The position numbers and the translations under genes are program-made. Below, piece after piece: positions 8,897 through 53,310 of a stretch of 64,000 nt of DNA. Location: positions 1-64,000 of the forward strand of contig NZ_BDEL01000001.1 in the NCBI RefSeq assembly GCF_001685485.1. Reading direction: 5' to 3'. Source of the stretch: Formosa haliotis. Lineage in GTDB: Bacteria > Bacteroidota > Bacteroidia > Flavobacteriales > Flavobacteriaceae. Numbering within the stretch: the first letter of the stretch is position 1; each line of letters opens with the position of its first letter. A model generated the notes under the pieces. That model did not search any database. It was not told the origin of the DNA and saw nothing but the letters and a program-made list of their open reading frames with translations.

Positions 8897-10637
8897 AAAG
8901 AGGTTGTCTAAAAAGGCAGCCTCTTTTTTTGGTTTAGATTTTATCAAAAGTTCAGTTTTTCGTATTTTAAAAGTATGAAAAGCAACATTGTATGGAAGAC
9001 CAATAGTCAGACACAATTGAGTCTTCTTCCTCCGAGTTATGATGATTTTGTTCCAGAACATCACCCTGTGCGTATTGTAAATAGTATTTTAAATCAGATA
9101 GACATTCGTTCTATAGAAAACACCTATAAAGGAGGTGGTACTTCTAGCTATCACCCAAGAGATTTACTCAAAATTTTAATCTACGCCTATCTTCGTAATT
9201 TATATTCTTCTCGCAAAATAGAACAAGCCTTGGGAGAAAACGTTCATTTTATGTGGCTTAGTGGTTGTATCCAACCCGATCATAATACCATCAGTAATTT
9301 TCGTTCAGGAAAACTCAAAGGGAATTTTAAAAAGATATTTAATCAAGTTGTTATTCTCCTTGCTAAGGAAGGTTACTTGAGTTTAAAAGATATTTATGTT
9401 GATGGCACCAAAATAGAAGCCAATGCTAATCGCTATACTTTTGTATGGGGCAAAAGCATTAAAACCTCACGCTCACGTATTGAAAAACAACTCAAAGAAC
9501 TATGGCGTTATGTAGAGACGGTATATGCAGAAGAAGAACAAAAGCCTAACGAGCCAGATAATTTTAAAGCGATAAATCCTGAGCAAGTCTCCCAAACCAT
9601 AGATAAAATTAATCAAGCACTCCAAGGAAAAGAGATTGATAAAAAAGTGAAGCAAAAGCTTAACTATGCCAAAAAGAACTGGCCTGGGAATATAGCAAAA
9701 TATAATACCTACCAGCAGCACATGGGGAGTCGCAACTCAATGAGCAAGACAGATCCTGATGCTACTTTTATGAAAATGAAAGAAGACCATATGCTAAATG
9801 GACAGCTCAAACCAGGATATAATTTGCAAGCATCTACCAACAATCAGTTTATTACCAATTACACCCTTGCACAAACTACGGCAGATACCACCACACTTAT
9901 AGAGCATACAGAAGATTTTATTAAGGGATATGGCAAAGCTCCACAAGCCTTAACAGCAGATGCAGGTTATGGTAGTGATGAAAATTACACCTATCTGGAA
10001 GATCAGAATATCGAAGCTTTTGTTAAGTACAATTACTTCCATAAAGAACAGTTAGATGAGAAACGAGGTAAGACTAAAAATCCATTTGCAGCAGATAAAC
10101 TTTTTTATAACCATAATACAGATACGTATTACTGTCCTATGGGACAACCTATGGAAAATATTGGTAGCTACATAAGACAAACAGCTACAGGATATGAACA
10201 AAAAATCGATAGATATCAGGCTAAGAATTGCTTCGGATGCCAGCTCCGGAGTCTCTGTCATCAATCAAAATACAACCGCATTATAGAGAGGAATCACAAA
10301 TTGGTTAGACTCAAAGCAAAAGCCAAACAAAAATTATTAAGCCCAGAAGGAGTTGCTCATAGAAAACAGCGTTGCTGGGATGTTGAAGCTGTTTTTGGTA
10401 ATATTAAACACAATATGAACTTCAAAAGGTTTATGTTAAGAGGACTTGATAAAGTAATTACCGAAATAGGACTTATTGCAATGGCACATAACCTTAAAAA
10501 AGTGAGTTTAGCCATATAAAATCACAGTGCCTATTTTTAACTAGACTCGAATTACTAAGTAAAAAAGAAAATCCTGATTAAACCCAAAATGTTCAAAAAA
10601 TAAAAGGTCGCCTAATTGGTTTTTAGACGACCTCTTT
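8897..10637 (+). mobile_element. IS1182-family insertion sequence, copy 1
   Basis: The ends were fixed by comparing the two copies. Both share everything from AAAGAGG to CCTCTTT and diverge outside. The imperfect terminal inverted repeats are AAAGAGGTTGTCTAAAAA (left) and AAAGAGGTCGTCTAAAAA (right, read inward). The length is 1741 bp, one base shorter than copy 2 because of a T-run next to the left end. Each end also folds into its own hairpin with T-runs. No clear target duplication is visible. The element lies between the converging DUF4870 and decarboxylase genes. Confidence 0.9.
8975..10519 (+). CDS. IS1182-family transposase
   Basis: A 514-residue DDE transposase. The N-terminal domain (LLPPSYDDFVPEHHPVRIVNSI, residues 15-36, then SSYHPRDLLKILIYAYL) is the typical IS1182/IS5-like region. 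The catalytic core includes the first acidic residue in YVDGTKIEANANRYTF, the second in TADAGYGSDENY and the C-terminal glutamate region RCWDVEAVFGNIKHNM, after a Cys-rich insert (CPMG, CFGCQLRSLCHQ) often seen in this family. The protein is identical to that of copy 2 at 51687-53231. The frame is intact, so the element may be active. Confidence 0.95.
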   Translation: MKSNIVWKTNSQTQLSLLPPSYDDFVPEHHPVRIVNSILNQIDIRSIENTYKGGGTSSYHPRDLLKILIYAYLRNLYSSRKIEQALGENVHFMWLSGCIQPDHNTISNFRSGKLKGNFKKIFNQVVILLAKEGYLSLKDIYVDGTKIEANANRYTFVWGKSIKTSRSRIEKQLKELWRYVETVYAEEEQKPNEPDNFKAINPEQVSQTIDKINQALQGKEIDKKVKQKLNYAKKNWPGNIAKYNTYQQHMGSRNSMSKTDPDATFMKMKEDHMLNGQLKPGYNLQASTNNQFITNYTLAQTTADTTTLIEHTEDFIKGYGKAPQALTADAGYGSDENYTYLEDQNIEAFVKYNYFHKEQLDEKRGKTKNPFAADKLFYNHNTDTYYCPMGQPMENIGSYIRQTATGYEQKIDRYQAKNCFGCQLRSLCHQSKYNRIIERNHKLVRLKAKAKQKLLSPEGVAHRKQRCWDVEAVFGNIKHNMNFKRFMLRGLDKVITEIGLIAMAHNLKKVSLAI

Positions 10638-27060: not shown

Positions 27061-28968
27061 ATGAGTAATTATCATATAAAACATTTAGAAGAATATTATC
27101 AAGTTTACAGGAAATCGGTTAGAGAACCCGAAAATTTTTGGGCCGAAGTTGCAGAAGAACATTTTATGTGGCGTAAACGATGGGATAAGGTGTTAAGTTG
27201 GGATTTTAAGAAACCAGAAATAAAATGGTTTGAAGGTGCCCAGTTAAATATTACCGAAAATTGTATAGACAGACACCTTAGAACAAAAGGCGATAAAACT
27301 GCTATTATTTTTGAACCGAATGACCCGAATGATCCCGCAGAACATATTTCGTATCAACAATTACATGATCGCGTTTGCCAAATGGCTAATGTGCTAAAGC
27401 GTAAAGGAATTAAAAAGGGAGATCGTGTGTGTATTTATTTACCCATGATTCCAGAATTAGCTATTTCACTTTTGGCTTGTGCTAGAATAGGAGCCATACA
27501 CTCTGTGGTTTTTGCAGGATTTTCATCGAAAGCATTATCCTCTCGTGTAAACGATAGTGAGTGTAAAATGGTAATTACTGCAGATGGATCTTATCGTGGT
27601 TCTAAAACTATCGATTTAAAAGGTATCGTAGATGGTGGCTTAGAATCGTGCCCTTGTGTAGAACATGTTTTGGTGGTGAATAGAATTAATTCGGAAATAA
27701 CCATGAAAGAAGGACGCGATGAGTGGTTACAACCTTTATTAGATGCCGCATCTCCAGTATGTGAACCCGAAATTATGAACGCAGAAGACCCTTTATTTAT
27801 TCTATATACATCGGGATCTACCGGAAAACCAAAAGGGATGGTACATACCACTGGAGGATATATGGTATATACCGCTTATACTTTTAAAAATGTATTTCAA
27901 TATAAAGATGGCGATGTGTACTGGTGTACGGCAGACATTGGTTGGATTACCGGACATAGTTATATTGTTTACGGTCCATTAGCAAACGGCGCAACTACAC
28001 TTATGTTTGAAGGCGTACCTCATTATCCAGATTTCGGAAGATTCTGGCAAATTGTAGAAAAACATAAAGTCAATCAATTTTATACGGCTCCTACAGCAAT
28101 TCGAGCTTTAGGAAAACAAAATATTAATTTTGTTGAAAACAGCGATTTATCATCTTTAAAAGTTTTAGGGTCTGTAGGAGAACCCATAAACGAAGAAGCA
28201 TGGCACTGGTATAACGATAATATTGGAAAACATAAAAGTCCGATTGTTGATACTTGGTGGCAAACCGAAACAGGAGGGATCATGATTACACCAATACCTT
28301 TTGTAACACCAACAAAACCAACGTATGCTACCTTACCATTTATAGGGATCCAACCCGCCTTGTTAGATGAGGTTGGGGAAGAGCTTAAGGGCAATCAGGT
28401 AGATGGTCGTTTGTGTATTAAGTTTCCTTGGCCATCTATTGCTCGTACCATTTGGGGAGATCATGCCCGATATAAAGACACTTATTTTTCTGCCTTCGAA
28501 AATATGTATTTTACAGGTGATGGCGCTTTAAGAGACGAGGTTGGATATTACAGAATTACTGGTCGCGTGGATGATGTTATCATTGTTTCTGGACATAATT
28601 TAGGAACGGCTCCTATAGAAGATGCCATAAACGAACATCCAGCAGTTGCAGAATCTGCCATTGTAGGATTCCCTCACGATGTAAAAGGAAATGCACTTTA
28701 CGGGTATGTTACTTTAAAAGAAACTGGGGAGTCTAGAGATCAGAATAACTTAAGAAACGAGATTAACCAATTAATTACAGATCGTATTGGAGCTATTGCT
28801 AAATTAGAAAAGATTCAGTTTACAGATGGCCTACCTAAAACGCGCTCTGGAAAAATTATGCGTCGTATTCTTAGAAAAATAGCAAGTAACGATCTTAGTA
28901 ATTTAGGAGATACAAGTACCTTGTTAAATCCGGAATGTGTACAAGATATTATAGATAAAAGTCTTTAA
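27061..28968 (+). CDS. acs: Acetyl-CoA synthetase
   Basis: A 635-residue AMP-forming acetate-CoA ligase that activates acetate via acetyl-AMP. Motifs are LYTSGSTGKPKGMVHTTGGY (P-loop-like A3), DTWWQTETGG (A5), YFTGDGA (A7), and the acetylation-regulated lysine in PKTRSGKIMRRILRK. The length is normal (630-650). It stands alone after a 387-base gap and is followed by a MITE-like repeat that separates it from the converging fahA. Confidence 0.97.
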   Translation: MSNYHIKHLEEYYQVYRKSVREPENFWAEVAEEHFMWRKRWDKVLSWDFKKPEIKWFEGAQLNITENCIDRHLRTKGDKTAIIFEPNDPNDPAEHISYQQLHDRVCQMANVLKRKGIKKGDRVCIYLPMIPELAISLLACARIGAIHSVVFAGFSSKALSSRVNDSECKMVITADGSYRGSKTIDLKGIVDGGLESCPCVEHVLVVNRINSEITMKEGRDEWLQPLLDAASPVCEPEIMNAEDPLFILYTSGSTGKPKGMVHTTGGYMVYTAYTFKNVFQYKDGDVYWCTADIGWITGHSYIVYGPLANGATTLMFEGVPHYPDFGRFWQIVEKHKVNQFYTAPTAIRALGKQNINFVENSDLSSLKVLGSVGEPINEEAWHWYNDNIGKHKSPIVDTWWQTETGGIMITPIPFVTPTKPTYATLPFIGIQPALLDEVGEELKGNQVDGRLCIKFPWPSIARTIWGDHARYKDTYFSAFENMYFTGDGALRDEVGYYRITGRVDDVIIVSGHNLGTAPIEDAINEHPAVAESAIVGFPHDVKGNALYGYVTLKETGESRDQNNLRNEINQLITDRIGAIAKLEKIQFTDGLPKTRSGKIMRRILRKIASNDLSNLGDTSTLLNPECVQDIIDKSL

Positions 28969-29044
28969 TACTTTTAAGTCCCGGCTAGAAAGATGTAGAC
29001 CGTATTATAGCTGAAGGCTTAAAAAGTAGAGATGATAAAGCAAA

Positions 29045-29182
29045 AAAAGAGGCTGTCCAAAAAGAATTAAAATCCGTCATTCTGAACTTGATTCAGAATC
29101 TCATGATATTGATAACCAATTATGTGAGAACCTGAATCAAGTTCAGGTTGACGAAAACTCTTCTTTTATGACAGCCTCTTTT
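29045..29182. repeat. MITE-like nested-hairpin repeat A
   Basis: The outer arms AAAAGAGGCTGTC (29045-29057) and GACAGCCTCTTTT (29170-29182) are exact inverted repeats. Inside, CGTC and GACG bracket two hairpins with arms ATTCTGAA/TTCAGAAT and AACCTGAA/TTCAGGTT joined by an AT-rich linker. The left outer end (AAAGAGGCTGTCCAAAAAG) differs by two C/T changes from the left end of the IS1182 element. It lies between the converging acs and fahA, 7 bases from the fahA stop. Confidence 0.85.
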
Positions 29183-29189
29183 CTTTATA

Positions 29190-30479
29190 TTACTTTTTCT
29201 TTGGTTTAAATACAGGTAGTAATTCGGTTTTAACTTCTCCGAAACCAATTCGGGTACCATCATTTTCGCAATACCCTCGCATGATCACCGTATCGTAATC
29301 GTTTATAAATTTACGTTCTGTTCCGTCTTTTAAAGTTATGGGTTTAGAACCTCTCCAAGTTAATTCTAGCATAGACCCTAAAGAATCTGGAGTTGGACCA
29401 GAAATCGTACCACTTCCCATTAAATCGCCAGAATTTACTGGGCAACCATTTATGGTATGGTGCGCTAATTGTTGCGACATATTCCAATACATATATTTGA
29501 AATTAGAATGACAAACAACAGTTTCTTTTGCCGTTTTAGGTTGAATAGCAACTTCTAAATTAATATCGAAACTCTTTTTGCCTTTTGTTTGTAAATAAGG
29601 CATTTGTGCTTTTACAGGTTTCGGACCTTGAACTCTAAATGGTTCTAAAGCATCAAGTGTTACAATCCATGGCGACATAGAAGAAGCAAAATTCTTTGAT
29701 AAAAATGGTCCTAGAGGCACATATTCCCAACTCTGAATATCTCTAGCACTCCAGTCGTTAAATAATACTAGTCCGAAAATATATTCTTCAGCTTCATTTG
29801 CTGGAATAGGTTCTCCTAAATCATTAGCATCAGTAGTAATGAACCCCATTTCTAATTCAAAATCAACAAATTTTGAAGGTCCAAATACTGGTTCTGTAGC
29901 ATCAGGAGGTAAGGTTTGTCCTTGTGGTCTGTGAATAGGAATTCCAGATGGAATAATAGACGAACTTCTTCCGTGATATCCTACAGGTATATGTAACCAA
30001 TTAGGTAATAAGGCATTTTCAGGATCTCTAAACATGGCCCCAACATTTGTGGCATGTTCAATGCTTGAATAAAAATCGGTATAATCTCCTATTAAAACGG
30101 GCAGTTGCATTTCTATTTCATCTAAACGAAATAGTACAATTTCTTTATGTTGTTTATTATCTTTTAAAATATCGTTTTCAGCATCAAAAATTTCGGCAAT
30201 TCTATTACGTACTGCTCTCCAAGTTTTTCTACCGTCGGCAATAAAGTCATTTAAAGTATCTTGAAGAAATATATCGTCTGTTAAAGGAATATCGTTAAAG
30301 TAGCCTAATTGATGCAGGGCACCAAGATCGATGGCCGTATCTCCAATTCGGGTTCCTATAGTAATAATGTCGTCTCGGGTAAGAAATACACCGAAAGGAA
30401 TATTCTGAATAGGAAAATCCGAATTTTTGTCGACATGTAGCCATGTCTTACGATCTGGATTGTTGGCTGATATTTGCAT
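29190..30479 (-). CDS. fahA: Fumarylacetoacetase
   Basis: A 429-residue FAH enzyme that splits fumarylacetoacetate into fumarate and acetoacetate, the last step of tyrosine breakdown. Visible motifs are DYTDFYSSIEHATNVGAMFR (metal and substrate site), VGYHGRSSSIIPSG (catalytic His-Gly-Arg), DFELEMGFI (metal-binding acidic residues), and NDWSARDIQSWEYVPLGPFL. The length matches the eukaryote-like form. It converges on acs and is divergent from glyA, separated by about 110 bases. No other tyrosine-pathway gene is in the window. Confidence 0.96.
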   Translation of the reverse strand: MQISANNPDRKTWLHVDKNSDFPIQNIPFGVFLTRDDIITIGTRIGDTAIDLGALHQLGYFNDIPLTDDIFLQDTLNDFIADGRKTWRAVRNRIAEIFDAENDILKDNKQHKEIVLFRLDEIEMQLPVLIGDYTDFYSSIEHATNVGAMFRDPENALLPNWLHIPVGYHGRSSSIIPSGIPIHRPQGQTLPPDATEPVFGPSKFVDFELEMGFITTDANDLGEPIPANEAEEYIFGLVLFNDWSARDIQSWEYVPLGPFLSKNFASSMSPWIVTLDALEPFRVQGPKPVKAQMPYLQTKGKKSFDINLEVAIQPKTAKETVVCHSNFKYMYWNMSQQLAHHTINGCPVNSGDLMGSGTISGPTPDSLGSMLELTWRGSKPITLKDGTERKFINDYDTVIMRGYCENDGTRIGFGEVKTELLPVFKPKKK

Positions 30480-30590
30480 AACGTTGTTGTTAGTTAATTG
30501 TTTAATAAATTCTATTCAAATATATGTTTTTTGATGTATTTAACTAATCTATTTGTTATTTTTGAGGAATTTTTAACGATAATTATAATG

Positions 30591-31865
30591 ATGCAACGCG
30601 ACGAACAAATTTTTGAATTAATAGAAGCCGAAAAACAACGCCAATTACATGGTTTAGAGTTAATTGCTTCGGAAAACTTTGTAAGCGACCAAGTAATGGA
30701 AGCTGCAGGTTCTGTTTTAACTAATAAATACGCAGAAGGCTACCCAGGTAAGCGCTATTATGGTGGCTGTGAGGTAGTTGATGAGGTAGAACAAATCGCG
30801 ATTGATCGTGCAAAAGCTCTTTTTGGAGCGGCCTATGTAAACGTACAACCACACTCTGGAAGTCAGGCAAACACAGCTGTTTTTGCGGCTTGTTTAAAAC
30901 CTGGAGATAAAATTTTAGGTTTCGATCTTTCTCATGGTGGACATTTAACGCACGGTTCTCCGGTAAACTTTTCAGGAAAATTATACAATCCTTCGTTTTA
31001 TGGTGTAGACCAAGAAACAGGAATTTTAAACTACGATAAAATTCAAAAGGTAGCTACAAAAGAGCAACCTAAGTTAATTATTGCTGGTGCTTCAGCATAT
31101 TCTCGTGATATCGATTTTAAACGTTTCCGTGAAATAGCAGATAGTGTAGGGGCAATTTTAATGGCCGATATTTCTCATCCTGCTGGATTAATTGCAAAAG
31201 GAATTTTAAACGATCCAATTCCGCATTGTCATGTAGTTACAACGACAACGCATAAAACCTTAAGAGGTCCAAGAGGAGGAATGATTATGATGGGTGAAGA
31301 TTTTGATAACCCATTTGGATTAAAACTTAAAAATGGAAGTTTAAGAAAGATGTCTTCTTTATTCGATTCTGCCGTATTTCCAGGAAACCAAGGAGGCCCA
31401 TTAGAGCATATTATTGCCGCTAAGGCGATTGCTTTTGGTGAAGCTCTTACAGACGACTACCTTAATTATATGCTACAAGTAAAGAAAAATGCATCGGCAA
31501 TGGCAGACGCATTTGTAGCCAAAGGTTATAATATTATTTCTGGAGGAACAGATAACCACATGATGCTTATCGACCTTAGAAATAAAAATGTTTCTGGAAA
31601 ACAAGCTGAAGAAGCCTTGGTGAAAGCAGATATTACAGTAAATAAAAACATGGTACCTTTTGATGATAAATCACCTTTTGTAACTTCAGGTATTCGTATT
31701 GGTGCTGCCGCAATTACAACTAGAGGTTTAAAAGAAAGCGATATGCAAACTATTGTTGATTTAGTTGACGAAGTTATTGTAAACTTAGAAGATGATGCTG
31801 TTTTAGCGTCTGTAGCAACTAAAGTAAATGCATTAATGGCAGAACGTCCGTTATTTGTATCTTAA
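30591..31865 (+). CDS. glyA: Serine hydroxymethyltransferase
   Basis: A 424-residue PLP enzyme interconverting serine plus tetrahydrofolate and glycine plus methylene-tetrahydrofolate. The PLP lysine is in [35 protein letters not shown] and [13 protein letters not shown] are typical. I chose ATG 30591 ([18 protein letters not shown]), since homologues start there. An adjacent ATG lies at 30588, and the frame extends upstream to 30498 without conserved sequence. It is followed by a short MITE-like repeat. Confidence 0.96.
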
Positions 31866-31892
31866 AAAGATAACAAACAGTTTATATAAATA

Positions 31893-31977
31893 AAAAGGCT
31901 GTCCTAAAATTTAAATTTTCGTCAACCTGAACATGATTCAGAATGACGGTTTTAAATACTTTTAGGATAGCCCTTTT
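31893..31977. repeat. MITE-like nested-hairpin repeat B (short form)
   Basis: The outer arms AAAAGGCTGTCCTAAAA (31893-31909) and TTTTAGGATAGCCCTTTT (31960-31977) enclose CGTCAACCTGAAC and ATTCAGAATGACG. One internal hairpin remains instead of two, as if the middle of the longer form had been deleted. It lies between the converging glyA and ppnP and can serve as a two-way terminator. Confidence 0.75.
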
Positions 31978-32029
31978 TTATGGGTGTTAGAAAAAAAATA
32001 TGTAACCGTATTTAATACAGGTTACATTT

Positions 32030-32311
32030 TTATTTATACTGACATAAATAGGAGGTTTGCTCTGAAACCTTTACTTGAAACGTTTTATTAGCATCGATCT
32101 CGTAAGATTCTCCCGCTTTAAAATTTTCCCAATTGCTAGATTCTGGTAATAACACGGTCATACTTCCTTCTATAACATTCATGGTTTCATGTTTGTTGGT
32201 GGCAAATTCGTACGTTCCAGCTTCCATAACCCCTAAAGTTGATGCTCCTGTAGCCGATTGATAGCCTAAAGATTTTACATTTCCTTCAAAGTAGGTGTTG
32301 CTTGATATCAT
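32030..32311 (-). CDS. ppnP: Pyrimidine/purine nucleoside phosphorylase (PpnP)
   Basis: A 93-residue cupin-like protein of the YaiE/PpnP family: ISSNTYFEGNVKSLGYQS, TLGVMEAGTYEFATNKHETM and a C-terminal VKVSEQTSYLCQYK. The characterised homologue splits a broad set of nucleosides with phosphate. The full length is normal for the family (about 93 residues). It is a single gene, 156 bases from the end of the B12 receptor operon. Confidence 0.9.
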   Translation of the reverse strand: MISSNTYFEGNVKSLGYQSATGASTLGVMEAGTYEFATNKHETMNVIEGSMTVLLPESSNWENFKAGESYEIDANKTFQVKVSEQTSYLCQYK

Positions 32312-32405
32312 AATATATGGTTTTAATGAACCTTAAAAGTATAACAATGCTTTATTAAGGCCAAGAGAACTGCCAAGAAACCGAAAATTCCTTAACGACA
32401 ACAAA

Positions 32406-32447
32406 TAAAAAATCGCCTAAAAATTGCTTTCTAGACGATCTCTCTTT
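32406..32447 (-). terminator. Terminator of the btuB-btuG operon, resembling the IS1182 right end
   Basis: Read on the minus strand, ATCGTCTA pairs with TAGGCGAT (one G-U) and a T-run follows. The IS1182 right end has stem GGTCGTCTA/TAGGCGACC with the G-U at the same place. It lies 21 bases past the btuG-like stop. Confidence 0.7.
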
Positions 32448-32467
32448 GTAAATGATACATTTGGGAA

Positions 32468-33538
32468 TTAATCGTTGAAATAGAATCCGTTTGGACCAAC
32501 ACCCACAGTATAGGTATTTATTAATGATCCAGATAACGAATATTCGTAAGTGGTTCCGGCAGAAGCAAAATCACCAGCATCTGCGATGTAAATTTTATCA
32601 TCTTCTACAGCAAACCCGTACATCGCTCCGTATTCTGAAGTTGATTCGTATTCTAACACTTGAGCGAAAGAATTTTCGTCGGCATTTGTGTTTAGTTTAA
32701 ATACAGAAGTTGCATTTGTAAAATACATAATGTCATCTTCAATATGTAATTGTTTTGCATTTTGAAGTTCTGCAGGTAAATCAATTTTTAAAGCAATAGT
32801 ATTTGTGCTTAAGTTGATTTTAAAAATAGAAGAACTAGTTGAAACGGCATTATTAGTTAAAACATATAAACTTCCGTCTTCTTCCTCAAGAGAATTAGGA
32901 GAATTTCCTTCACCTAAATCAATTTCTGTAGTCGATTCTGTATTTGGGTCTAATACCGTAACACGGTTTCCAGCACCAAAATATCCATTAGCAAAATAGA
33001 TCATGTCATCGTCTTCAATAACACGCTCTGCATTCTTCATATTAAATGTAGAGGTAGAATAATCTGTTAAATCTATAACTGTAACAAAGTCGTCTGAACC
33101 ATCATCCCATCCGTTAGAGTTGGTTACATAGGCCTTACCTTCTGCAATAGCACCATATCTAGGAGATGCAAGATCTGAATCTATAGTTGCAATATATTCG
33201 AAAGAATAACGGTCTACTACTGTAATTTGATTTGAGGCTCCCGAAATTATATAGGCATGGTCATCATCAAAAAACATACTTTGTAAAGCATCTCCAAGTT
33301 CTGAAGCTGTAGGGTTCACATTTTCAAAAATATCATTGTCTTGAGAACCATCTTCTCCTATAAATGTAACTCCAGAAGTTCTAGGGTTTCCAAATTGTCC
33401 TTCGTTTAAAACAAAATAACCATGGTCGTAAATGCCATTTGGTACATCGGGTGTATTATCGTCATCGTCTTTGCTACAAGAGCTAAACATAGCTGCACTA
33501 ACTAAGGCAACTGCAAAAAATTTGTGTATCTGTTTCAT
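32468..33538 (-). CDS. BtuG-like surface lipoprotein, beta-propeller (DUF5074/YncE type)
   Basis: A 356-residue lipoprotein. The signal peptide ends in lipobox FSSC, directly followed by SKDDDDN, an acidic surface-export signal of the Bacteroidota kind (K then D/E). The rest shows repeated propeller blade strands (HAYIISGASNQITVVDRYSFEYIATI, KAYVTNSNG, DDDMIYFANGYFGAGNRVTVLDPNT). BtuG in Bacteroides thetaiotaomicron is a propeller lipoprotein that binds cobalamin tightly and hands it to BtuB. This gene directly follows a btuB-like receptor by 10 bases under the same cobalamin riboswitch, so the same role is likely. Confidence 0.82.
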   Translation of the reverse strand: MKQIHKFFAVALVSAAMFSSCSKDDDDNTPDVPNGIYDHGYFVLNEGQFGNPRTSGVTFIGEDGSQDNDIFENVNPTASELGDALQSMFFDDDHAYIISGASNQITVVDRYSFEYIATIDSDLASPRYGAIAEGKAYVTNSNGWDDGSDDFVTVIDLTDYSTSTFNMKNAERVIEDDDMIYFANGYFGAGNRVTVLDPNTESTTEIDLGEGNSPNSLEEEDGSLYVLTNNAVSTSSSIFKINLSTNTIALKIDLPAELQNAKQLHIEDDIMYFTNATSVFKLNTNADENSFAQVLEYESTSEYGAMYGFAVEDDKIYIADAGDFASAGTTYEYSLSGSLINTYTVGVGPNGFYFND

Positions 33539-33548
33539 AGTGTAATAA

Positions 33549-35380
33549 TTAAAAATTTATATTTAAGTAAATTGAATAATTTCGTCCAGGCATATATCTA
33601 CTAGAAACACTTTGGTAGTTTTCGTTCCATATATTATTAAGCTGTCCTCCTAAAGTAAAGGTGTTACAGAAGGTGTAATCTAATCCGATATTTGAGATTT
33701 GATAGCCATCTAATTCATATTTTGAAATATTATCTGTAGTTGTAAATACGTTTCCTACATACATAAACTGATAAAAGCAGATATATTTTTAAAGCTATAA
33801 CCTAAACTTGCAGTTGCTTTATGATAAGGCACATAAATAAGTTGTTTATTGGTAGCTTGGTTTTCTGAAACCGTGTACGCATAGGTGCTATTAACGGTTA
33901 TTTGATGTTGGTTAAATGTTTTTGTATACTGTAGGAGTCCTTCTAAACCGTAGGTAATTACATGATCTGTATTAATAGGTTGCCAATTAGAACCGTTTGG
34001 TAGCCATCTAATCATATTTGTAATGTCGTTATAATAGGCGGTTAACGACAGGTTTATATTTTTAAATTTAAGATGATTTCCTAGTTCTGCTTGATAGGAT
34101 GTTTCTGGTTTTAAGTCGGGATTACCACTGCCTTCCCAATACAAATCGTTAAAGGTTGGAATTCTAAAATTTTTAGACCCATTAATCGTGATATAATAAG
34201 GCGAACTAATTTGAATTTGTAGGCCTAAATTATATAAAAACGGACTGTTATAACTATCTGTAAGCTCTTGCCTGAAACCTAATTCGTATAAAAACCACGT
34301 GGTTAATTGATGCTTGTAAAGAAGATTAAAACTTGCTATTTGTCGTTTTTCATCATCTATGCTTGAGCCTTCACCTTTGTTTTGTGTATAATCGGCAATC
34401 GCATTAAGCGTTATTTTTTCTGAAGGGGTATAGGTAAAATCGTATTTTGCGATTATAGAGTTTACACCCCCAAAAGCATTCGAGTTGGTATTTATATTAT
34501 CGAAATATTTATAATCTTCGGTAATATAAGCTAGTTTCAATTTCGATATTATGTTATTGTAGAACCCATTCCATTCAATTAAATTTCGGGTATTAAAATC
34601 CTGATATTTAGTAGGCGTTTCATTAGGAAGAATTAAAGAAAAATGGCGCTCCCCATCAAAAGCATAACTATACAATTTTAGTATATTTTTGGTGTTTAAT
34701 CTATAACTAATATTAGCATTTAAACTGGTATTGTAATAGGCGCCGTTGCGATTATAATTATCGGAATCTACAAATTCATAATCGTTATCTGAGCTGTTTC
34801 TACTAATACTAATATTGGCGCTTAAATTATTTACCACTATGTTACTTTTATAATTAAATAATAGGGTATTAAAACTTCCGTAACGGCTATGTATGGTATT
34901 TTTAAAACCTTCAGAATAGTCGAATGCATTATTTAAATGAATACTTCCGCCAATCGCACCACTCCCGTAAATAACACTACCGCCACCACTTCTTACGCTA
35001 ATCGCATTAAAATCTGAAGTGTTTAAGGTGTTAAAATCTGTTTGTCCGTTAAGCTGAGAATTTATATTTATCCCATTCCAAATAACAGCGGTTTGTTGCG
35101 CAGTTGTGCCTCTAAAAGAAGGTGAGGATACCATGCCCAAACCATTTTCTTTAAAATAAATAGGTGTGTTATAATTTAAAAGCGAAGTTAAAGAGGGCTT
35201 ATTTATTGAGATGATACTATCCGATAAGACTAAAATAGATTGAGTATTACTAAATGTTTTTAGTTGCGAGTCGGTGGTGATTAAAACTTCTTCTAAATTT
35301 TGAACCGCATCGGTTTGCGCAGCAAGAGTTGCTGAAAAACACAAGGAAATTAAAAAATAGAGTGATAGTTTTTGTTTCAT
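33549..35380 (-). CDS. btuB: TonB-dependent cobalamin receptor, BtuB-like (one frameshift)
   Basis: An outer-membrane TonB-dependent receptor of about 610 residues. The signal peptide ends near AQTDAVQ. The plug (LEEVLITTDSQ, SLTSLLNYNTPIYFKENGLGM, SSPSFRGTTAQQTAVIWNGI, SVRSGGGSVIYGSGAIGGSIHL) is followed by a 22-strand-type barrel. The frame breaks near 33764. One extra T restores FISFMYVGNVFTTTDNISKYEL and a barrel end at SIYLNINF with the expected C-terminal Phe. The cobalamin riboswitch ends about 45 bases before the ATG, and the btuG-like gene follows after 10 bases. The B12 specificity therefore rests on the RNA and the neighbours. Confidence 0.9.
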
Positions 35381-35424
35381 ATATCTTAAGACCTTTTTCC
35401 CGAAAGCCGTTCGTTTATGCTGAA

Positions 35425-35612
35425 TTTGGCAGGTCTCCTGACTTTCGTCTTGTTAATTCACCTTCCCAATTTAAAATTAAAATCAGTGGTATGTTGAAGT
35501 ATCAATAACAAGCATTTTGCTAAGCAAAACTAAGATTACAGTTGCGGGAACAGTTTGAGATTTGCACTCAATTCCCATTTAATCCATCACTTAAAGTAAT
35601 ATGAACCAAAAT
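35425..35612 (-). ncRNA. Cobalamin (AdoCbl-type) riboswitch
   Basis: Read on the minus strand, the leader has AAATGGGAATTGAGTGCAAA at its 5' side, the B12-box core TTCCCGCAACTGTAATC in the middle, and CGAAAGTCAGGAGACCTGCC at its 3' side. These three blocks, in this order, are the conserved core of cobalamin riboswitches. It precedes the btuB-like gene and should lower its expression when cobalamin is plentiful. A TATTTTTG minus-7 element on the minus strand (35619-35626) would start the transcript right at the aptamer. Confidence 0.94.
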
Positions 35613-35724
35613 TCGCAGCAAAAATAAGGATTTTATTATTATTGGAATGTAAATCCCACTTTTTTTGTAGAGTAGTTTGTAAGGAGACAGATATAACCTT
35701 TCAAAAAAAATAAATATTTTTATT

Positions 35725-35752
35725 TTGACTGAAATTTATATGCTTACATTTG
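35725..35752 (+). promoter_or_regulatory. Promoter of the btuF/btuC/btuD-like operon
   Basis: TTG at 35725-35727, 17 bases, then TACATTTG at 35745-35752, an exact flavobacterial consensus. There is no second riboswitch between it and the ATG at 35835. Confidence 0.75.
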
Positions 35753-35834
35753 AAGTGTTTTTAATGTTAAAATTCTTGATTCTTATCGGTGTTTAAAAAC
35801 CATTTTACAGTCCGTTTTAATTAATATTTAAACT

Positions 35835-36986
35835 ATGTCTTTACAGTTAAAATCTTTATTATTAGTCTTTTTAGTGTTTGTTTTCAGTTGTAAAAACGAA
35901 GCAAAACAAGTTAAAGAAGTTCAAGATCCAGGTGTTGATTTACCTTTAAAACACGCTAAAGGATTTTCTGTTAAAACGTATAAAAATTACAAAGTTTTAG
36001 AGATTTATAGTCCGTGGCCAAAAGCAGAAAAGACCTATAAATTTGCTTTGGTAGATAGAGCTTTTCAGGATAAGGTAGATTTAAAATCATCCGATTTTGA
36101 GGCGGTAATTCCAATTCCTATTGAGCGCATTGTAGTAACATCTACTACACATTTACCAGGATTGGAATTGTTAGATGAAGCGCATAAATTAGTTGGTTTT
36201 CCAGGCACTCAATATGTGTCTTCAGAGCATATTAGACATCGTATAGATAATAATGAAATTCGGGAACTTGGAAAAAACGAAGGTATAAATACCGAGGTGT
36301 TGTTAGAATTGCGACCTGAGTTAGTAATGGCTTTTGGTGTAGATGGGAATAATCGCGCTTTAGAGCAAGTAAAAAATGCAAATATTCCTGTGATGTACAA
36401 TGGCGACTGGGTGGAAACATCTCCACTAGCCAAAGCCGAATGGATAAAACTTTTTGGTGTACTTTTTAAAAAGGAAGCCCAAGCCGATCAGGTTTATAAT
36501 ATTATAGAAACCGAATATGTAAACGCTAAAAAATTAGCAGCTACGGTAAGTGATAAGCCGAGTATTTTAAGCGGTGCTATGCATAAGGATGTGTGGTATT
36601 TACCTAACGGGACGAGTGCCGAGGCCCAATTGCTACAAGATGCGAATACCAATTATTTATGGAAAAACACACAAGGAGCAGGGAGTTTAGCGCTTAATTT
36701 TGAAACCGTTTTTAATAAAGCAAAAGCGGCAGATATTTGGGTAAACCCGTCGTTTTATGCAAGTTTAGAAGATTTAAAAACGGCGAATCAACATTATTCT
36801 AAATTTACTGCATTTAAAGCTAAGCAAATCTACACCATGGCAAATACTAAGGGTGAAACCGGTGGTGTTTTGTATTATGAATTGGGTCAATCTAGACCAG
36901 ACTTGGTGTTGAAAGATTTAATTAAAATTTGTCACCCAGAATTACTTCCAGATTACGAACTTTATTTTTATCAAAAACTAAACTAA
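35835..36986 (+). CDS. ABC transporter substrate-binding lipoprotein, BtuF-like
   Basis: A 383-residue lipoprotein (lipobox FSC at residues 17-19) with a class III periplasmic-binding fold. Typical pieces are IERIVVTSTTHLPGLELL, ELRPELVMAFGVDG, and a C-terminal SRPDLVLKDLIKICHPEL. Such proteins bind siderophores, haem or cobalamin. Cobalamin is inferred here because the gene faces a riboswitch-controlled btuB/btuG pair. It leads directly into a FecCD-type permease (0-base gap) and an ATPase, forming a complete importer. Confidence 0.85.
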   Translation: MSLQLKSLLLVFLVFVFSCKNEAKQVKEVQDPGVDLPLKHAKGFSVKTYKNYKVLEIYSPWPKAEKTYKFALVDRAFQDKVDLKSSDFEAVIPIPIERIVVTSTTHLPGLELLDEAHKLVGFPGTQYVSSEHIRHRIDNNEIRELGKNEGINTEVLLELRPELVMAFGVDGNNRALEQVKNANIPVMYNGDWVETSPLAKAEWIKLFGVLFKKEAQADQVYNIIETEYVNAKKLAATVSDKPSILSGAMHKDVWYLPNGTSAEAQLLQDANTNYLWKNTQGAGSLALNFETVFNKAKAADIWVNPSFYASLEDLKTANQHYSKFTAFKAKQIYTMANTKGETGGVLYYELGQSRPDLVLKDLIKICHPELLPDYELYFYQKLN

Positions 36987-38015
36987 TTGCCTAATCAACC
37001 CAAATATAAACAGGCCTTTTTTGTGCTTTTTGTACTGCTTGTATGTTGCTTTTTTATCAACATAAGTTTGGGGTCTGTTTCTATTCCTATACGAGGCGTT
37101 ATTAATAGTGTTTTTGCGCATTCATCTCACGAATCATGGACTTATATTATTCAAAATTATAGATTACCAAAGGCTGTTACAGCCATATTAGTAGGGTCGG
37201 GATTGGGCGTGTCGGGCCTTTTAATGCAAACATTATTTAGAAATCCTCTTGCCGGACCTTTTGTTTTAGGCATAAGCTCTGGGGCAAGTTTAGGCGTGGC
37301 TTTAGTTATATTAGGGTCGGGCCTTTTTGGAGGTGTATTTGCCGGTATTTTAATTTCGAAATGGAGTGTGGTTATTGCAGCCAGTTTAGGTAGTTTTTTA
37401 GTTTTGTTGGCGGTACTTATTGTGTCTTCGAGGGTTCGCGATACCATGGCCATTTTAATTATAGGACTCATGTTTGCAAGTATTACAGGAGCCATTGTAG
37501 GTGTGTTATCTTATTTTAGTTCGGCAGAACAATTACAGCGCTATGTGTTTTGGGGCTTTGGGAGTTTAGGCAATTTATCTTGGCAAGAACTCCTTGTTTT
37601 TGGACTCATTTATAGTGTTGGTTTGGTTTTAAGTTTAGCTTCTGTAAAAGCCTTAAATACCTTGTTATTAGGCGAAAATTATGCCAAAAGTTTAGGCTTA
37701 CACCTAAAGCGAAGCAGATTGTATATTATTTTAGCAACAAGTTTATTGGCAGGTACGATTACCGCGTTCGCAGGGCCGATTGCTTTTATAGGTTTGGCCA
37801 TTCCGCATGTTGCGCGTTTGGTTTTTAATACGTCTAATCATAAAATATTATTACCGGCAGTGGTACTATTTGGGGCTATTATTATGTTGATTTGCGATAC
37901 GATTGCTCAAATTCCGAATAGCGATTACACATTACCTATCAATGCAATTACCTCGTTGGTAGGCGCTCCAATGGTGATTTGGTTATTAGTACGGAAACGA
38001 AATTTAATGTTTTAA
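36987..38015 (+). CDS. FecCD-family ABC permease, BtuC-like
   Basis: A 342-residue permease with about ten helices. The diagnostic blocks YRLPKAVTAILVGSGLGVSGLLMQTLFRNPLAGPFVLGISSGASLG and GPIAFIGLAIPHVARL are intact. It starts with TTG at 36987-36989, immediately after the TAA of the binding-protein gene. No Met occurs before the first membrane helix, so this start is favoured. Its stop overlaps the ATG of the ATPase gene in TAATG. Confidence 0.9.
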   Translation: MPNQPKYKQAFFVLFVLLVCCFFINISLGSVSIPIRGVINSVFAHSSHESWTYIIQNYRLPKAVTAILVGSGLGVSGLLMQTLFRNPLAGPFVLGISSGASLGVALVILGSGLFGGVFAGILISKWSVVIAASLGSFLVLLAVLIVSSRVRDTMAILIIGLMFASITGAIVGVLSYFSSAEQLQRYVFWGFGSLGNLSWQELLVFGLIYSVGLVLSLASVKALNTLLLGENYAKSLGLHLKRSRLYIILATSLLAGTITAFAGPIAFIGLAIPHVARLVFNTSNHKILLPAVVLFGAIIMLICDTIAQIPNSDYTLPINAITSLVGAPMVIWLLVRKRNLMF

Positions 38016-38809
38016 TGGAAGAAAATCAGAAACATATAATTTTAAGAACGGAAGATTTAACCATTGGATATCGATCTACATCGGAGAAAACCATAATCGC
38101 GGAACATATAAATATTACCCTTGGTAAAGGAGAACTTGTTAGCTTAGTGGGAGGTAATGGTATAGGAAAATCTACGATGTTACGTACACTTACTAACACA
38201 CAGCCAGCCTTAAGCGGTCAAGTTTTTATTAATAATAAAGCCGTAGTAACTTATGATGCTCTAGCTTTAGCACAAGTGCTTAGCATTGTATTTACTGAAA
38301 AATTGACCTCGAAAAATTTATCGGTTTTCGAATTGGTAGCCTTGGGGCGCCATCCTTATACCAATTGGATTGGAAGCCTATCTGACTTGGATGTTGAAAA
38401 AATTAATAATGCGTTGCAGTTAACGCATATTGAACATTTAAAGCATAAAAAGTGTTTTGAATTAAGCGATGGCCAACTTCAAAAAGTGATGATTTCTCGC
38501 GCTTTAGCTCAAGATACCGATTTGATTATTCTCGATGAACCTACCACGCATCTAGATATGTATCATAAAGCCTATGTTTTAAAATTGCTTCAACGCTTAA
38601 CCAAAGAAACAGGAAAAACCATTTTGTTTTCGTCTCACGAAATTGATTTAGCCATTCAGCTTTGTGACAAAATGATAGTGATGACTCCAGAATGGGTGGT
38701 TTCAGATTCGCCATGTAACCTTATAGAACAAGGGGTGTTTTCTACATTATTCCCAGACGATTTAATTAAGTTTGATCCGTCAACAGGAAGTTTTCGGGTG
38801 AATAAATAG
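38015..38809 (+). CDS. ABC transporter ATP-binding protein, BtuD-like
   Basis: A 264-residue ATPase of the iron-siderophore/cobalamin class. Walker A is GGNGIGKST (residues 46-54), the signature is LSDGQLQK, Walker B is LIILDEPTTHLD, and the switch His is in SSHEID. I use ATG 38015 (MEENQKHIILRTEDL), which overlaps the permease stop by one base. A longer in-frame start at 37979 would sit inside the permease gene and adds no conserved sequence. With the two preceding genes it completes the importer. Confidence 0.92.
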   Translation: MEENQKHIILRTEDLTIGYRSTSEKTIIAEHINITLGKGELVSLVGGNGIGKSTMLRTLTNTQPALSGQVFINNKAVVTYDALALAQVLSIVFTEKLTSKNLSVFELVALGRHPYTNWIGSLSDLDVEKINNALQLTHIEHLKHKKCFELSDGQLQKVMISRALAQDTDLIILDEPTTHLDMYHKAYVLKLLQRLTKETGKTILFSSHEIDLAIQLCDKMIVMTPEWVVSDSPCNLIEQGVFSTLFPDDLIKFDPSTGSFRVNK

Positions 38810-38884
38810 GCGAAGTTTCTTTAGTTTTCAAGCTATTTTTTTCCATTAAAAACAAGTATATTTGAGTGTTTTCAACCAAATTTC

Positions 38885-40273: not shown

Positions 40274-40274
40274 A

Positions 40275-40412
40275 AAAAGAGGCTGTATAAAATGTTGAGT
40301 TTTCGTCGACCTGAACTTGATTCAGGTTCTCACATATCGTGTTATCCATGTGATGAGATTCTGAACTAAATTCAGAATGACGAGTTTTAATACTTTTTAA
40401 ACAGCCTCTTTT
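40275..40412. repeat. MITE-like nested-hairpin repeat C (opposite orientation to A)
   Basis: The outer arms AAAAGAGGCTGT (40275-40286) and ACAGCCTCTTTT (40401-40412) are exact. Internal CGTC and GACG bracket two hairpins in the reverse order of repeat A, first ACCTGAA/TTCAGGT, then ATTCTGAA/TTCAGAAT. It fills the gap between the converging rmuC and the small membrane gene at 40435, so it can terminate both. Confidence 0.85.
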
Positions 40413-40434
40413 ATTGAATTGTGTGATTTAACAC

Positions 40435-40650
40435 TTAGTATGCTTCAAAATCTTCTTTACGAGTTTGTGGTTTTTCGTAGTCTTCAATTTGAACTTTATC
40501 GTGAGTAAATAAATTGGCAACAACCAAAATAAATCCTAACATTAAAAGTGTAATCACTACAAAATTATCTAATATATCTAACATACCCGAGATGGCGAAT
40601 CCGAAAGAAACGACAATGGTGAGTATGAATGACATTTTATCTGAAAGCAT
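40435..40650 (-). CDS. Small two-helix membrane protein of unknown function
   Basis: A 71-residue protein with two membrane helices (residues 6-24 and 27-46) and a charged tail (HDKVQIEDYEKPQTRKEDFEAY). I recognise no family. It is 14 bases downstream of purB on the same strand and probably co-transcribed with it. Confidence 0.65.
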   Translation of the reverse strand: MLSDKMSFILTIVVSFGFAISGMLDILDNFVVITLLMLGFILVVANLFTHDKVQIEDYEKPQTRKEDFEAY

Positions 40651-40664
40651 AATGTGTTTAGGTT

Positions 40665-51568: not shown

Positions 51569-53310
51569 AAAGAGGTCGTCTAAAAACCAATTAGGCGACC
51601 TTTTATTTTTTGAACATTTTGGGTTTAATCAGGATTTTCTTTTTTACTTAGTAATTCGAGTCTAGTTAAAAATAGGCACTGTGATTTTATATGGCTAAAC
51701 TCACTTTTTTAAGGTTATGTGCCATTGCAATAAGTCCTATTTCGGTAATTACTTTATCAAGTCCTCTTAACATAAACCTTTTGAAGTTCATATTGTGTTT
51801 AATATTACCAAAAACAGCTTCAACATCCCAGCAACGCTGTTTTCTATGAGCAACTCCTTCTGGGCTTAATAATTTTTGTTTGGCTTTTGCTTTGAGTCTA
51901 ACCAATTTGTGATTCCTCTCTATAATGCGGTTGTATTTTGATTGATGACAGAGACTCCGGAGCTGGCATCCGAAGCAATTCTTAGCCTGATATCTATCGA
52001 TTTTTTGTTCATATCCTGTAGCTGTTTGTCTTATGTAGCTACCAATATTTTCCATAGGTTGTCCCATAGGACAGTAATACGTATCTGTATTATGGTTATA
52101 AAAAAGTTTATCTGCTGCAAATGGATTTTTAGTCTTACCTCGTTTCTCATCTAACTGTTCTTTATGGAAGTAATTGTACTTAACAAAAGCTTCGATATTC
52201 TGATCTTCCAGATAGGTGTAATTTTCATCACTACCATAACCTGCATCTGCTGTTAAGGCTTGTGGAGCTTTGCCATATCCCTTAATAAAATCTTCTGTAT
52301 GCTCTATAAGTGTGGTGGTATCTGCCGTAGTTTGTGCAAGGGTGTAATTGGTAATAAACTGATTGTTGGTAGATGCTTGCAAATTATATCCTGGTTTGAG
52401 CTGTCCATTTAGCATATGGTCTTCTTTCATTTTCATAAAAGTAGCATCAGGATCTGTCTTGCTCATTGAGTTGCGACTCCCCATGTGCTGCTGGTAGGTA
52501 TTATATTTTGCTATATTCCCAGGCCAGTTCTTTTTGGCATAGTTAAGCTTTTGCTTCACTTTTTTATCAATCTCTTTTCCTTGGAGTGCTTGATTAATTT
52601 TATCTATGGTTTGGGAGACTTGCTCAGGATTTATCGCTTTAAAATTATCTGGCTCGTTAGGCTTTTGTTCTTCTTCTGCATATACCGTCTCTACATAACG
52701 CCATAGTTCTTTGAGTTGTTTTTCAATACGTGAGCGTGAGGTTTTAATGCTTTTGCCCCATACAAAAGTATAGCGATTAGCATTGGCTTCTATTTTGGTG
52801 CCATCAACATAAATATCTTTTAAACTCAAGTAACCTTCCTTAGCAAGGAGAATAACAACTTGATTAAATATCTTTTTAAAATTCCCTTTGAGTTTTCCTG
52901 AACGAAAATTACTGATGGTATTATGATCGGGTTGGATACAACCACTAAGCCACATAAAATGAACGTTTTCTCCCAAGGCTTGTTCTATTTTGCGAGAAGA
53001 ATATAAATTACGAAGATAGGCGTAGATTAAAATTTTGAGTAAATCTCTTGGGTGATAGCTAGAAGTACCACCTCCTTTATAGGTGTTTTCTATAGAACGA
53101 ATGTCTATCTGATTTAAAATACTATTTACAATACGCACAGGGTGATGTTCTGGAACAAAATCATCATAACTCGGAGGAAGAAGACTCAATTGTGTCTGAC
53201 TATTGGTCTTCCATACAATGTTGCTTTTCATACTTTTAAAATACGAAAAACTGAACTTTTGATAAAATCTAAACCAAAAAAAAGAGGCTGCCTTTTTAGA
53301 CAACCTCTTT
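51569..53310 (-). mobile_element. IS1182-family insertion sequence, copy 2 (opposite orientation)
   Basis: A 1742-base element with the same ends and the same encoded protein as copy 1. The visible length difference is one T in a run beside the left inverted repeat (eight here, seven there). It lies between the converging pepD and the dual isomerase gene, 22 bases from the latter's stop. No clear target duplication is visible. Confidence 0.9.
51687..53231 (-). CDS. IS1182-family transposase (second copy)
   Basis: A 514-residue transposase identical in sequence to the product at 8975-10519, with the same DDE segments (YVDGTKIEANANRYTF, TADAGYGSDENY, RCWDVEAVFGNIKHNM). The open frame runs on upstream to 53339, but that 36-residue extension is only a translation of the IS end and lies before the shared start MKSNIVWKTNSQ. 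The real start is ATG 53229-53231, the same as copy 1. Confidence 0.95.
   Translation of the reverse strand: MKSNIVWKTNSQTQLSLLPPSYDDFVPEHHPVRIVNSILNQIDIRSIENTYKGGGTSSYHPRDLLKILIYAYLRNLYSSRKIEQALGENVHFMWLSGCIQPDHNTISNFRSGKLKGNFKKIFNQVVILLAKEGYLSLKDIYVDGTKIEANANRYTFVWGKSIKTSRSRIEKQLKELWRYVETVYAEEEQKPNEPDNFKAINPEQVSQTIDKINQALQGKEIDKKVKQKLNYAKKNWPGNIAKYNTYQQHMGSRNSMSKTDPDATFMKMKEDHMLNGQLKPGYNLQASTNNQFITNYTLAQTTADTTTLIEHTEDFIKGYGKAPQALTADAGYGSDENYTYLEDQNIEAFVKYNYFHKEQLDEKRGKTKNPFAADKLFYNHNTDTYYCPMGQPMENIGSYIRQTATGYEQKIDRYQAKNCFGCQLRSLCHQSKYNRIIERNHKLVRLKAKAKQKLLSPEGVAHRKQRCWDVEAVFGNIKHNMNFKRFMLRGLDKVITEIGLIAMAHNLKKVSLAI

Follow-up and report, generated by a model that had tools for sequence, protein, structure and literature searches.

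Introduction

IS1272, which belongs to the IS1182 family, inserts at hairpins and removes them with no target duplication (PMC5678879). TnSha1 carries IS1272 and targets hairpins, and five of its seven sites are terminators according to RNA-seq (PMC4923244). An excess between convergent genes is reported for IS1182 and other families in a published survey (PMC9208149). IS1182-family MITEs have been described in Paracoccus yeei (MITEPye1, PMC11578231) and in Methanosarcina acetivorans (ISMac2-related, PMC3852290).

The CGTC REPs were reported from five phyla with no association with transposase genes, and their mobilisation by other transposases was left open. Most of their 3' tails, not all, fit CCA. 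In H. neapolitanus, the CGTC-1 dimers are placed within 41-bp palindromic frames (PMC3733652).

The window analysed here is the initial 64 kb of the 4.31-Mb single-contig genome of Formosa haliotis (G000). It contains three repeats (A, B and C) and two copies of a resident IS1182. The repeats probably represent an old MITE family, whose IS1182-type ends enclose a CGTC-REP heterodimer and which was spread in trans by IS1182-type transposases, replacing terminators and being kept as terminators.

The repeats and the resident IS1182

The features of the window are the following:

8897..10637, plus strand: IS1182 copy 1 (TIRs 8897-8915 and 10619-10637); both ends fold as hairpins with a T run behind them (pattern search, fold)
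8975..10519, plus strand: IS1182 transposase of copy 1, 514 aa (ORF, profile match)
29046..29181, plus strand: repeat A, full element, arm - REP - REP - arm (pattern search, own-genome search, RNA fold)
29046..29064, plus strand: left arm of repeat A, IS1182-type end (pattern search)
29075..29099, plus strand: CGTC-tagged REP 1 in repeat A, with the tag CGTC, an 8-bp stem and a 5-nt loop (read from the sequence)
29129..29153, minus strand: CGTC-tagged REP 2 in repeat A, inverted, with a stem unlike that of REP 1 (heterodimer; read from the sequence)
29163..29181, minus strand: right arm of repeat A, IS1182-type end (pattern search)
31892..31978, plus strand: repeat B, single-hairpin form; a short terminator occupies the site in five congeners (pattern search, congener comparison)
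40276..40411, minus strand: repeat C, full element; a short terminator occupies the site in five congeners (pattern search, congener comparison)
51569..53310, minus strand: IS1182 copy 2 (TIRs 51569-51587 and 53292-53310; pattern search, comparison with copy 1)
51687..53231, minus strand: transposase of copy 2, identical to that of copy 1 over 514 aa; the start in the ORF list is 36 aa longer, to 53339

The transposase is assigned to the IS1182 family by NF033551 (440.8 bits, cut-off 270). The two copies in the window have 100% identity over 1,717 nt, and both have the ends AAAGAGGTTGTCTAAAAAG (left) and AAAGAGGTCGTCTAAAAAC (right). The whole genome contains six copies with an identical protein and a decayed one. 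The identity of the six proteins indicates that the burst of this IS is recent and that the IS was recently active.

Other IS1182 subgroups were also encountered. The TIRs were sought automatically at 21 IS1182 loci, and the ends of six were read by eye. A second subgroup (510 aa, TIR like CAGTCTGTCTAATAAC) is found at L041-L045, near 3.89, 2.91 and 1.16 Mb of G000. The surroundings of these loci are palindromic and look like integron cassettes (attC-like by eye), and group II introns (Rfam RF02001) adjoin the IS at L041, L043 and L044. Other hairpins may be the targets of this subgroup. A third subgroup, with the ends TGTTGCACAA(G), is found at L280 (G040), L282 (G142) and L283 (G103).

The arms of repeat A are AAAGAGGCTGTCCAAAAAG and, inverted, AAAGAGGCTGTCATAAAAG. 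Between them are two REP hairpins with the stems ATTCTGAA/TTCAGAAT and AACCTGAA/TTCAGGTT, both of 8 bp with a 5-nt loop. The earlier note had placed the borders at 29045..29182; these need a small correction, since the element starts at about 29041-29046 and ends at about 29181-29185. Repeat C has the full form in the orientation opposite to A. The fixed core of these gene-less repeats, previously described as CGTC, two hairpins and GACG, is present in A and C, where the order is CGTC-hairpin...hairpin-GACG; B is a shorter form with one hairpin only between its arms. The RNA fold of repeat A has an energy of -69.9 kcal/mol (z -14.7), a value that none of 200 shuffles reaches.

The repeats are short and gene-less with terminal inverted repeats, and their dispersed copies occupy sites that are empty in relatives. 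By anatomy and insertion pattern, they are predicted to be a MITE of the IS1182 family. In a search of positions 28000-42000 against Rfam (E up to 1), the repeats match just two microRNA models, at 25.4 and 23.4 bits against gathering values of 83 and 109, which were taken as chance. A cobalamin riboswitch (95 bits) is located at 35411-35625 of the window, minus strand.

Similarity of the arms to the IS1182 ends

The window was searched with the pattern AAAGAGGYTGTCYAAAAAG, allowing up to 3 mismatches. This gave nine matches versus 0.18 expected, and none of 100 shuffles reaches nine. The matches start at 8897 and 10619 (IS1182 copy 1), 51569 and 53292 (copy 2), 29046 and 29163 (A), 40276 and 40393 (C) and 31892 (left arm of B). 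The 19-base end that repeat A and IS1182 had been said to have in common, with two C/T differences, was quoted exactly, and the related ends attributed to B and C are recovered as matches to both arms of C and to the left arm of B. Genome-wide, 31 of the 40 arms of 20 full-arm copies score at least 12/15 against the IS1182-end consensus. The same 15-position consensus reaches 12 in one of 97 element-free orthologous 3' regions and in 17 of 2000 random 30-mers. The repeat ends therefore match the IS1182-family TIRs beyond chance, a similarity that is observed directly.

The IS1182 ends differ between left and right in G068, in G011 and in the decayed copy of G103. These have the left end GAGGCTGTCTGAAAAG / GCTGTCTGAAAAG and a right end of the G(A/G)(A/G)GTCGTCTAAAAAG type. 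The left end in G000, G113 and G023 is of the A type at the diagnostic place, and the right end of the resident IS1182, GAGGTCGTCTAAAAAC, differs from the common repeat arm by three bases. The corresponding signature is directly visible in the repeats of G157, where all 11 sampled elements have one G arm and one A arm (10 TCTG and one TATG versus TCTA), and in part of those of G142, where 3 of 13 copies (L309, L312 and L379) have a TCTG arm opposite GAGGTCGTCTAAAAAG / GTCGTCTAAAAAG. The remaining 10 copies of G142 are without the full left/right form, the copies of G000, G005 and G103 are not diagnostic, and the signature is not general across the repeat copies. Such inequality would be expected if the arms are transposon ends, but not if they form a stem under selection for pairing. 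Relative to the left and right arms, the REP pair of G157 faces the other way from that of G142. This may reflect repeated capture; an inversion could also account for it.

Stand-alone hairpins of about 35 bp that resemble the IS1182 left end occur as plain putative terminators at L406 (G157), L405/L422 (G142), L402 (G004) and L404 (G005). The hairpin at L406 contains the first 20 bases of the IS1182 left end without a change. In G000, L050 (G000:95404) is a bare arm-arm hairpin, and further single-hairpin forms are present. The stand-alone hairpins, L050 included, may have been left behind by former elements, may represent minimal elements or may themselves have given rise to the IS1182 ends. 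L171, the native terminator of G001 at site L009 (AAAAAGAGGCTGTCTTAAATTAAGACAGCCTCTTTT), is a nearly bare arm pair, which is either an emptied element or a look-alike host terminator. The native terminator stems of the congeners resemble the repeat arm at sites B and L009. Together with the left-end-like plain terminators of several genomes, these stems indicate that some of the likeness needs no common descent.

The CGTC-REP core

The two REPs of repeat A (29075-29099 and 29129-29153) agree with the published CGTC REPs (PMC3733652) in the CGTC tag, in the 8- or 9-bp stem that starts with A/T pairs and in the 4- or 5-nt loop. They form a head-to-head dimer, which is a heterodimer. The tail after REP 1 is CTCA and departs from CCA. 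The core had been regarded as a structure beyond the IS, perhaps with a role of its own; it is not new, as it fits the CGTC REP dimers already in print (PMC3733652).

An intact RAYT was sought in the genome (PF01797/Y1_Tnp) and none was found. The only two matches are weak and broken (23 and 21.8 bits, cut-off 23), and a RAYT was rejected as the mover. Arm-less CGTC REPs adjoin an intact terminator and do not replace it at L146 (G003, site L003), at L156 (G001, site L006) and at site A of G003, where the arm-less REPs form a dimer.

Distribution in the family

A sequence model built from 20 copies has a match in 52 of 149 genomes of the family; the counts of this survey are lower bounds, with both strands counted and up to the best 21 matches per genome. 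Among the matches listed, at least 14 genomes have a near-full-length one (model positions <=7 to >=137), namely G000, G010, G012, G040, G047, G064, G080, G090, G103, G107, G119, G142, G149 and G157. Many other genomes match over the core alone, which indicates that REP dimers also exist without arms. The exact arm-plus-REP pattern retrieves 42 stretches from the genome collection, with titles that name Tamlana, Mesonia, Muricauda/Allomuricauda/Flagellimonas, Winogradskyella, Lutibacter, Algibacter, Salegentibacter, Seonamhaeicola or Flavobacteriaceae. All these genera belong to Flavobacteriaceae.

IS1182 of any subgroup is present in 32 of the 149 genomes and in 5 of the 14 listed with near-full-length repeats (G000, G040, G103, G119 and G142). 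Among the repeat-bearing genomes searched, the matching subgroup is intact only in G000, with fragments in G103, G040 and G080. No match of the 514-aa type (E 1e-6) was found in G005, G010, G012, G047, G064, G090, G107, G149 and G157, and G142 and G119 have only distant subgroups. Repeats are nevertheless plentiful in three genomes without the matching IS, with about 22 places in G005, at least 15 full-length places in G157 and at least 18 places in G142. The copy number, which the earlier note proposed to compare with the presence of IS1182, does not follow it at the genus or family level: G005 and G157 are rich in repeats with no IS1182 found and G142 has only other subgroups, some of the surveyed genomes being drafts, in which IS copies are often missing. 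The loss of an IS with persistence of its MITEs is common. In the IS-less genomes, the IS may have been lost in this way or may never have been present.

Genome copies, age and placement

The search of the own genome with repeat A by BLAST gave 66 matches, with both strands and partial matches counted. The best 30 of these were taken as loci and correspond to 29 distinct places. Both arms are present at 20 of the 29 (pattern test), and nine are partial copies.

At all 29 loci at least one neighbouring gene ends towards the element. The neighbours are convergent at 18 loci, codirectional at 11 and divergent at none, according to a simple call that took the longest ORF close to each edge as the neighbour. 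The background was taken from the gaps of more than 30 nt in the window, using 58 of the 66 listed ORFs (the eight dropped are the two IS genes and overlapping ORFs); it comprises 9 convergent, 15 codirectional and 11 divergent gaps. Against this small background, the convergent excess has p 4e-5 and the divergent deficit p 2e-5. The six IS1182 copies show four convergent, two codirectional and no divergent placements.

The resident IS1182 might be considered the current mover of the repeats. It has 17 of 19 end bases in common with repeat A and occupies the same niche, with a stop codon 21-26 nt away in five of the six copies, and its six identical proteins speak for recent activity. The repeats of this genome are themselves old, since the best pair among the 20 full-arm copies has an identity of 0.90 and the median is 0.82; in G103 and G157, by comparison, the best pairs are nearly identical (0.97-0.98). 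Moreover, similar copies exist in G005 without the IS, and the right end GAGGTCGTCTAAAAAC is three bases off the common arm. That the resident IS moves the repeats at present is therefore very improbable.

Elements in the place of native hairpins

Empty sites, which the earlier note suggested comparing with filled ones and whose absence it took as a refutation, were found. In the five congeners (G001-G005), no element is present at sites B and C; at site A, G005 alone has one and G001-G004 are empty. The empty sites A, B and C have a short ordinary terminator hairpin at the place of the element.

For 24 further sites (19 repeats and 5 IS), the 3' end of a neighbour gene was sought in G001-G005 and the region behind it was read. 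These are 19 of the 29 distinct repeat loci and 5 of the 6 IS sites. L012, L016, L017, L020, L024, L026, L028 and L029 were set aside because of their distance or an odd shape, L001 and L004 are sites A and C of the window, the IS site L033 was also set aside, and L014 gave no match. The 98 orthologous matches obtained at 23 sites comprise one filled region (G005 at L019) and 97 without the element, among which three matches of L021 (two in one genome) are doubtful and yet counted. A terminator hairpin was detected by a simple in-house scan in 85 of the element-free regions, and in 67 it lies within 12 nt of the place of the element. The empty regions, those with a hairpin and those with a hairpin within 12 nt are 79, 67 and 52 for the repeats and 18, 18 and 15 for the IS. 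The site medians of hairpin and element position correlate (Spearman 0.69, 22 sites), and 18 of the 22 sites agree within 12 nt against a mean of 12.8 under site permutation (p 0.0023), an agreement that is partly expected from the usual spacing.

An addition beside the terminator would leave both structures. As a rule only the element is present, which argues for replacement: no other terminator-like hairpin exists within 130 nt for 19 of the 20 full-arm copies and five of the six IS copies (the exceptions are L029 and L033). Another hairpin is nearby in four of the nine partial copies (L020, L023, L025 and L026). Of the 37 site-by-genome pairs examined, which come from 12 sites, 31 have downstream flanks that align with an offset of up to 10 nt. 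These correspond to 20 of 24 pairs for the repeats (8 sites, two of them partial copies) and 11 of 13 for the IS (4 sites); pairs were counted when they had a hairpin and a downstream anchor, and L021, L025 and L030, with no right arm, were skipped. The IS copy L034 replaces the hairpin of G004 and G002 exactly, within the resolution of the A/T runs. G004 reads CACAAAAAACCTCTTCATCTCGAAGAGGTTTTTTAATTCTTAC, with an almost identical sequence in G002, and the IS of G000 is flanked by CACAA and TTAATTCTTAC. At many sites the element or the IS is thus seen in the place of a native hairpin, a pattern that agrees with the stem-loop replacement published for IS1272. The flanks are 70-94% identical to those of the congeners, so the events would have occurred between species; no movement within a species was seen.

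Recombination between terminators could also exchange one hairpin for another. The repeats would then be RNA-level terminators copied by gene conversion with no transposase, in agreement with the swap of hairpin for hairpin between an A-tract and a T-tract. However, the exchanged hairpins share little sequence beyond short A/T runs, and at 4 sites the same exchange is found for the IS, an element with a transposase. This makes gene conversion hardly credible.

Predicted terminator role and the origin of the arms

The outer stem covaries, with changes on both sides in 8 of its 12 pairs. For the whole structure, none of 500 shuffles reaches the observed values, a control that ignores relatedness, so the covariation is support and not proof. 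The repeats have a GC-rich hairpin with a T tract behind genes, as in intrinsic terminators. Their flanking A- and T-tracts, their position behind genes and the missing native terminator fit predicted bidirectional terminators.

These properties could also be read in terms of host stems. The arms would be stems of host terminators, the CGTC-REP dimer would have inserted itself into their loop through a mechanism specific to REPs (a RAYT or an unknown one), and the likeness to IS1182 would be convergence, the IS1182 ends being terminator-like. The covariation of the outer stem agrees with such an origin, as do the core matches without arms in many genomes of the family, the stand-alone terminators like the IS1182 left end and the REP dimers inside palindromic frames in other bacteria (Di Nocera 2013, PMC3733652). 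On the other hand, 96 of the 97 empty regions score below 12/15 against the arm consensus, so that at nearly all of them the native stem differs from the arm and the arms came in together with the core, and the unequal, IS-like arms kept in G157 and part of G142 are disfavoured by stem pairing. Among the few arm-less REPs seen, three adjoin an intact terminator (L146, L156 and site A of G003), and the genome has just the two broken Y1_Tnp (RAYT-type) matches. A host origin of the arms is accordingly rather unlikely, and a MITE family with IS1182-type ends is the preferred reading.

Proposed mechanism and significance

In the proposed mechanism, a transposase of the IS1182 family would recognise both repeat ends in trans and insert the element where a hairpin is present, in this case the intrinsic terminator that follows a gene. 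The native hairpin would be removed with no target-site duplication. Both ends consist of A-tract, GC-rich stem and T-tract, so that the inserted element would fold as a long hairpin able to end transcription from both sides. With transcription ended both ways, the insertion would not cost the host a terminator, and the copy could be kept.

We infer both the transposase action in trans and the termination activity, and the movers were presumably IS1182 relatives other than the present resident copies. The suggestion of the earlier note that the repeats are a non-autonomous family movable by IS1182 is supported in part: a non-autonomous family with IS1182-type ends agrees with the end similarity, with the left/right identity of part of the copies and with a position in place of a hairpin like that of the IS. 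The support does not extend to the resident IS as mover of the present copies, as the IS is recent and the repeats are old.

A wider proposal, made tentatively, is quite possible: IS1182-type transposases would mobilise CGTC-REP dimers in Flavobacteriaceae, the IS1182 ends having captured dimers, perhaps more than once, to give composites that swap for terminators and become the host's own. The REP dimers reported within palindromic frames from H. neapolitanus and A. variabilis may belong here as well. If the proposal is true, there would be a class of mobile DNA that replaces terminators at almost no cost, and part of the answer to how the CGTC REPs move would be at hand. The CGTC REPs, reported without a dedicated transposase (PMC3733652), are here inside the ends of a hairpin-targeting transposon family. 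By this route a mobile element could put an equivalent part where regulatory DNA had been, and could thereby last for a long time.

Comparison with known systems

The earlier note knew of no published link between the repeats and IS1182. The accessible open-licence literature, including PMC3852290, PMC11578231, PMC5771137 and PMC6006769, likewise gave no link of the CGTC REPs or of a Flavobacteriaceae MITE with IS1182, IS1182-type MITEs being known elsewhere. Nor was a case that unites IS1182-type ends, a REP dimer and terminator replacement found in that literature.

The repeats resemble the REPIN/RAYT system in their inverted REP pairs spread through intergenic DNA. They differ in that no intact RAYT was found, the outer ends are those of another transposase family and the element replaces a hairpin. 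The likeness to the CGTC REP dimers (Di Nocera et al. 2013, PMC3733652) is closer and includes the tag, the 8-bp stem, the 5-nt loop, the head-to-head heterodimer and the convergent or codirectional ORFs, whereas here the dimer is enclosed by IS1182-type inverted repeats.

MITEPye1 and the ISMac2-related MITEs are, like the repeats, short and gene-less with IS1182-type terminal inverted repeats (PMC11578231, PMC3852290). MITEPye1 is also intergenic and folds as a long stem. It is reported with direct repeats and 1-3 chromosomal copies, whereas here a hairpin is replaced (PMC11578231). The accessible text on both groups makes no mention of a REP core or of terminator replacement (PMC11578231, PMC3852290).

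IS1272 and TnSha1 have in common with the repeats the IS1182-family ends, the hairpin targets, several of them terminators, the whole or partial deletion of the hairpin and the lack of a target-site duplication (PMC5678879, PMC4923244). Those elements have a transposase gene and belong to staphylococci, whereas the repeats are gene-less, measure 90-145 bp, contain a REP core and reside in Flavobacteriaceae.
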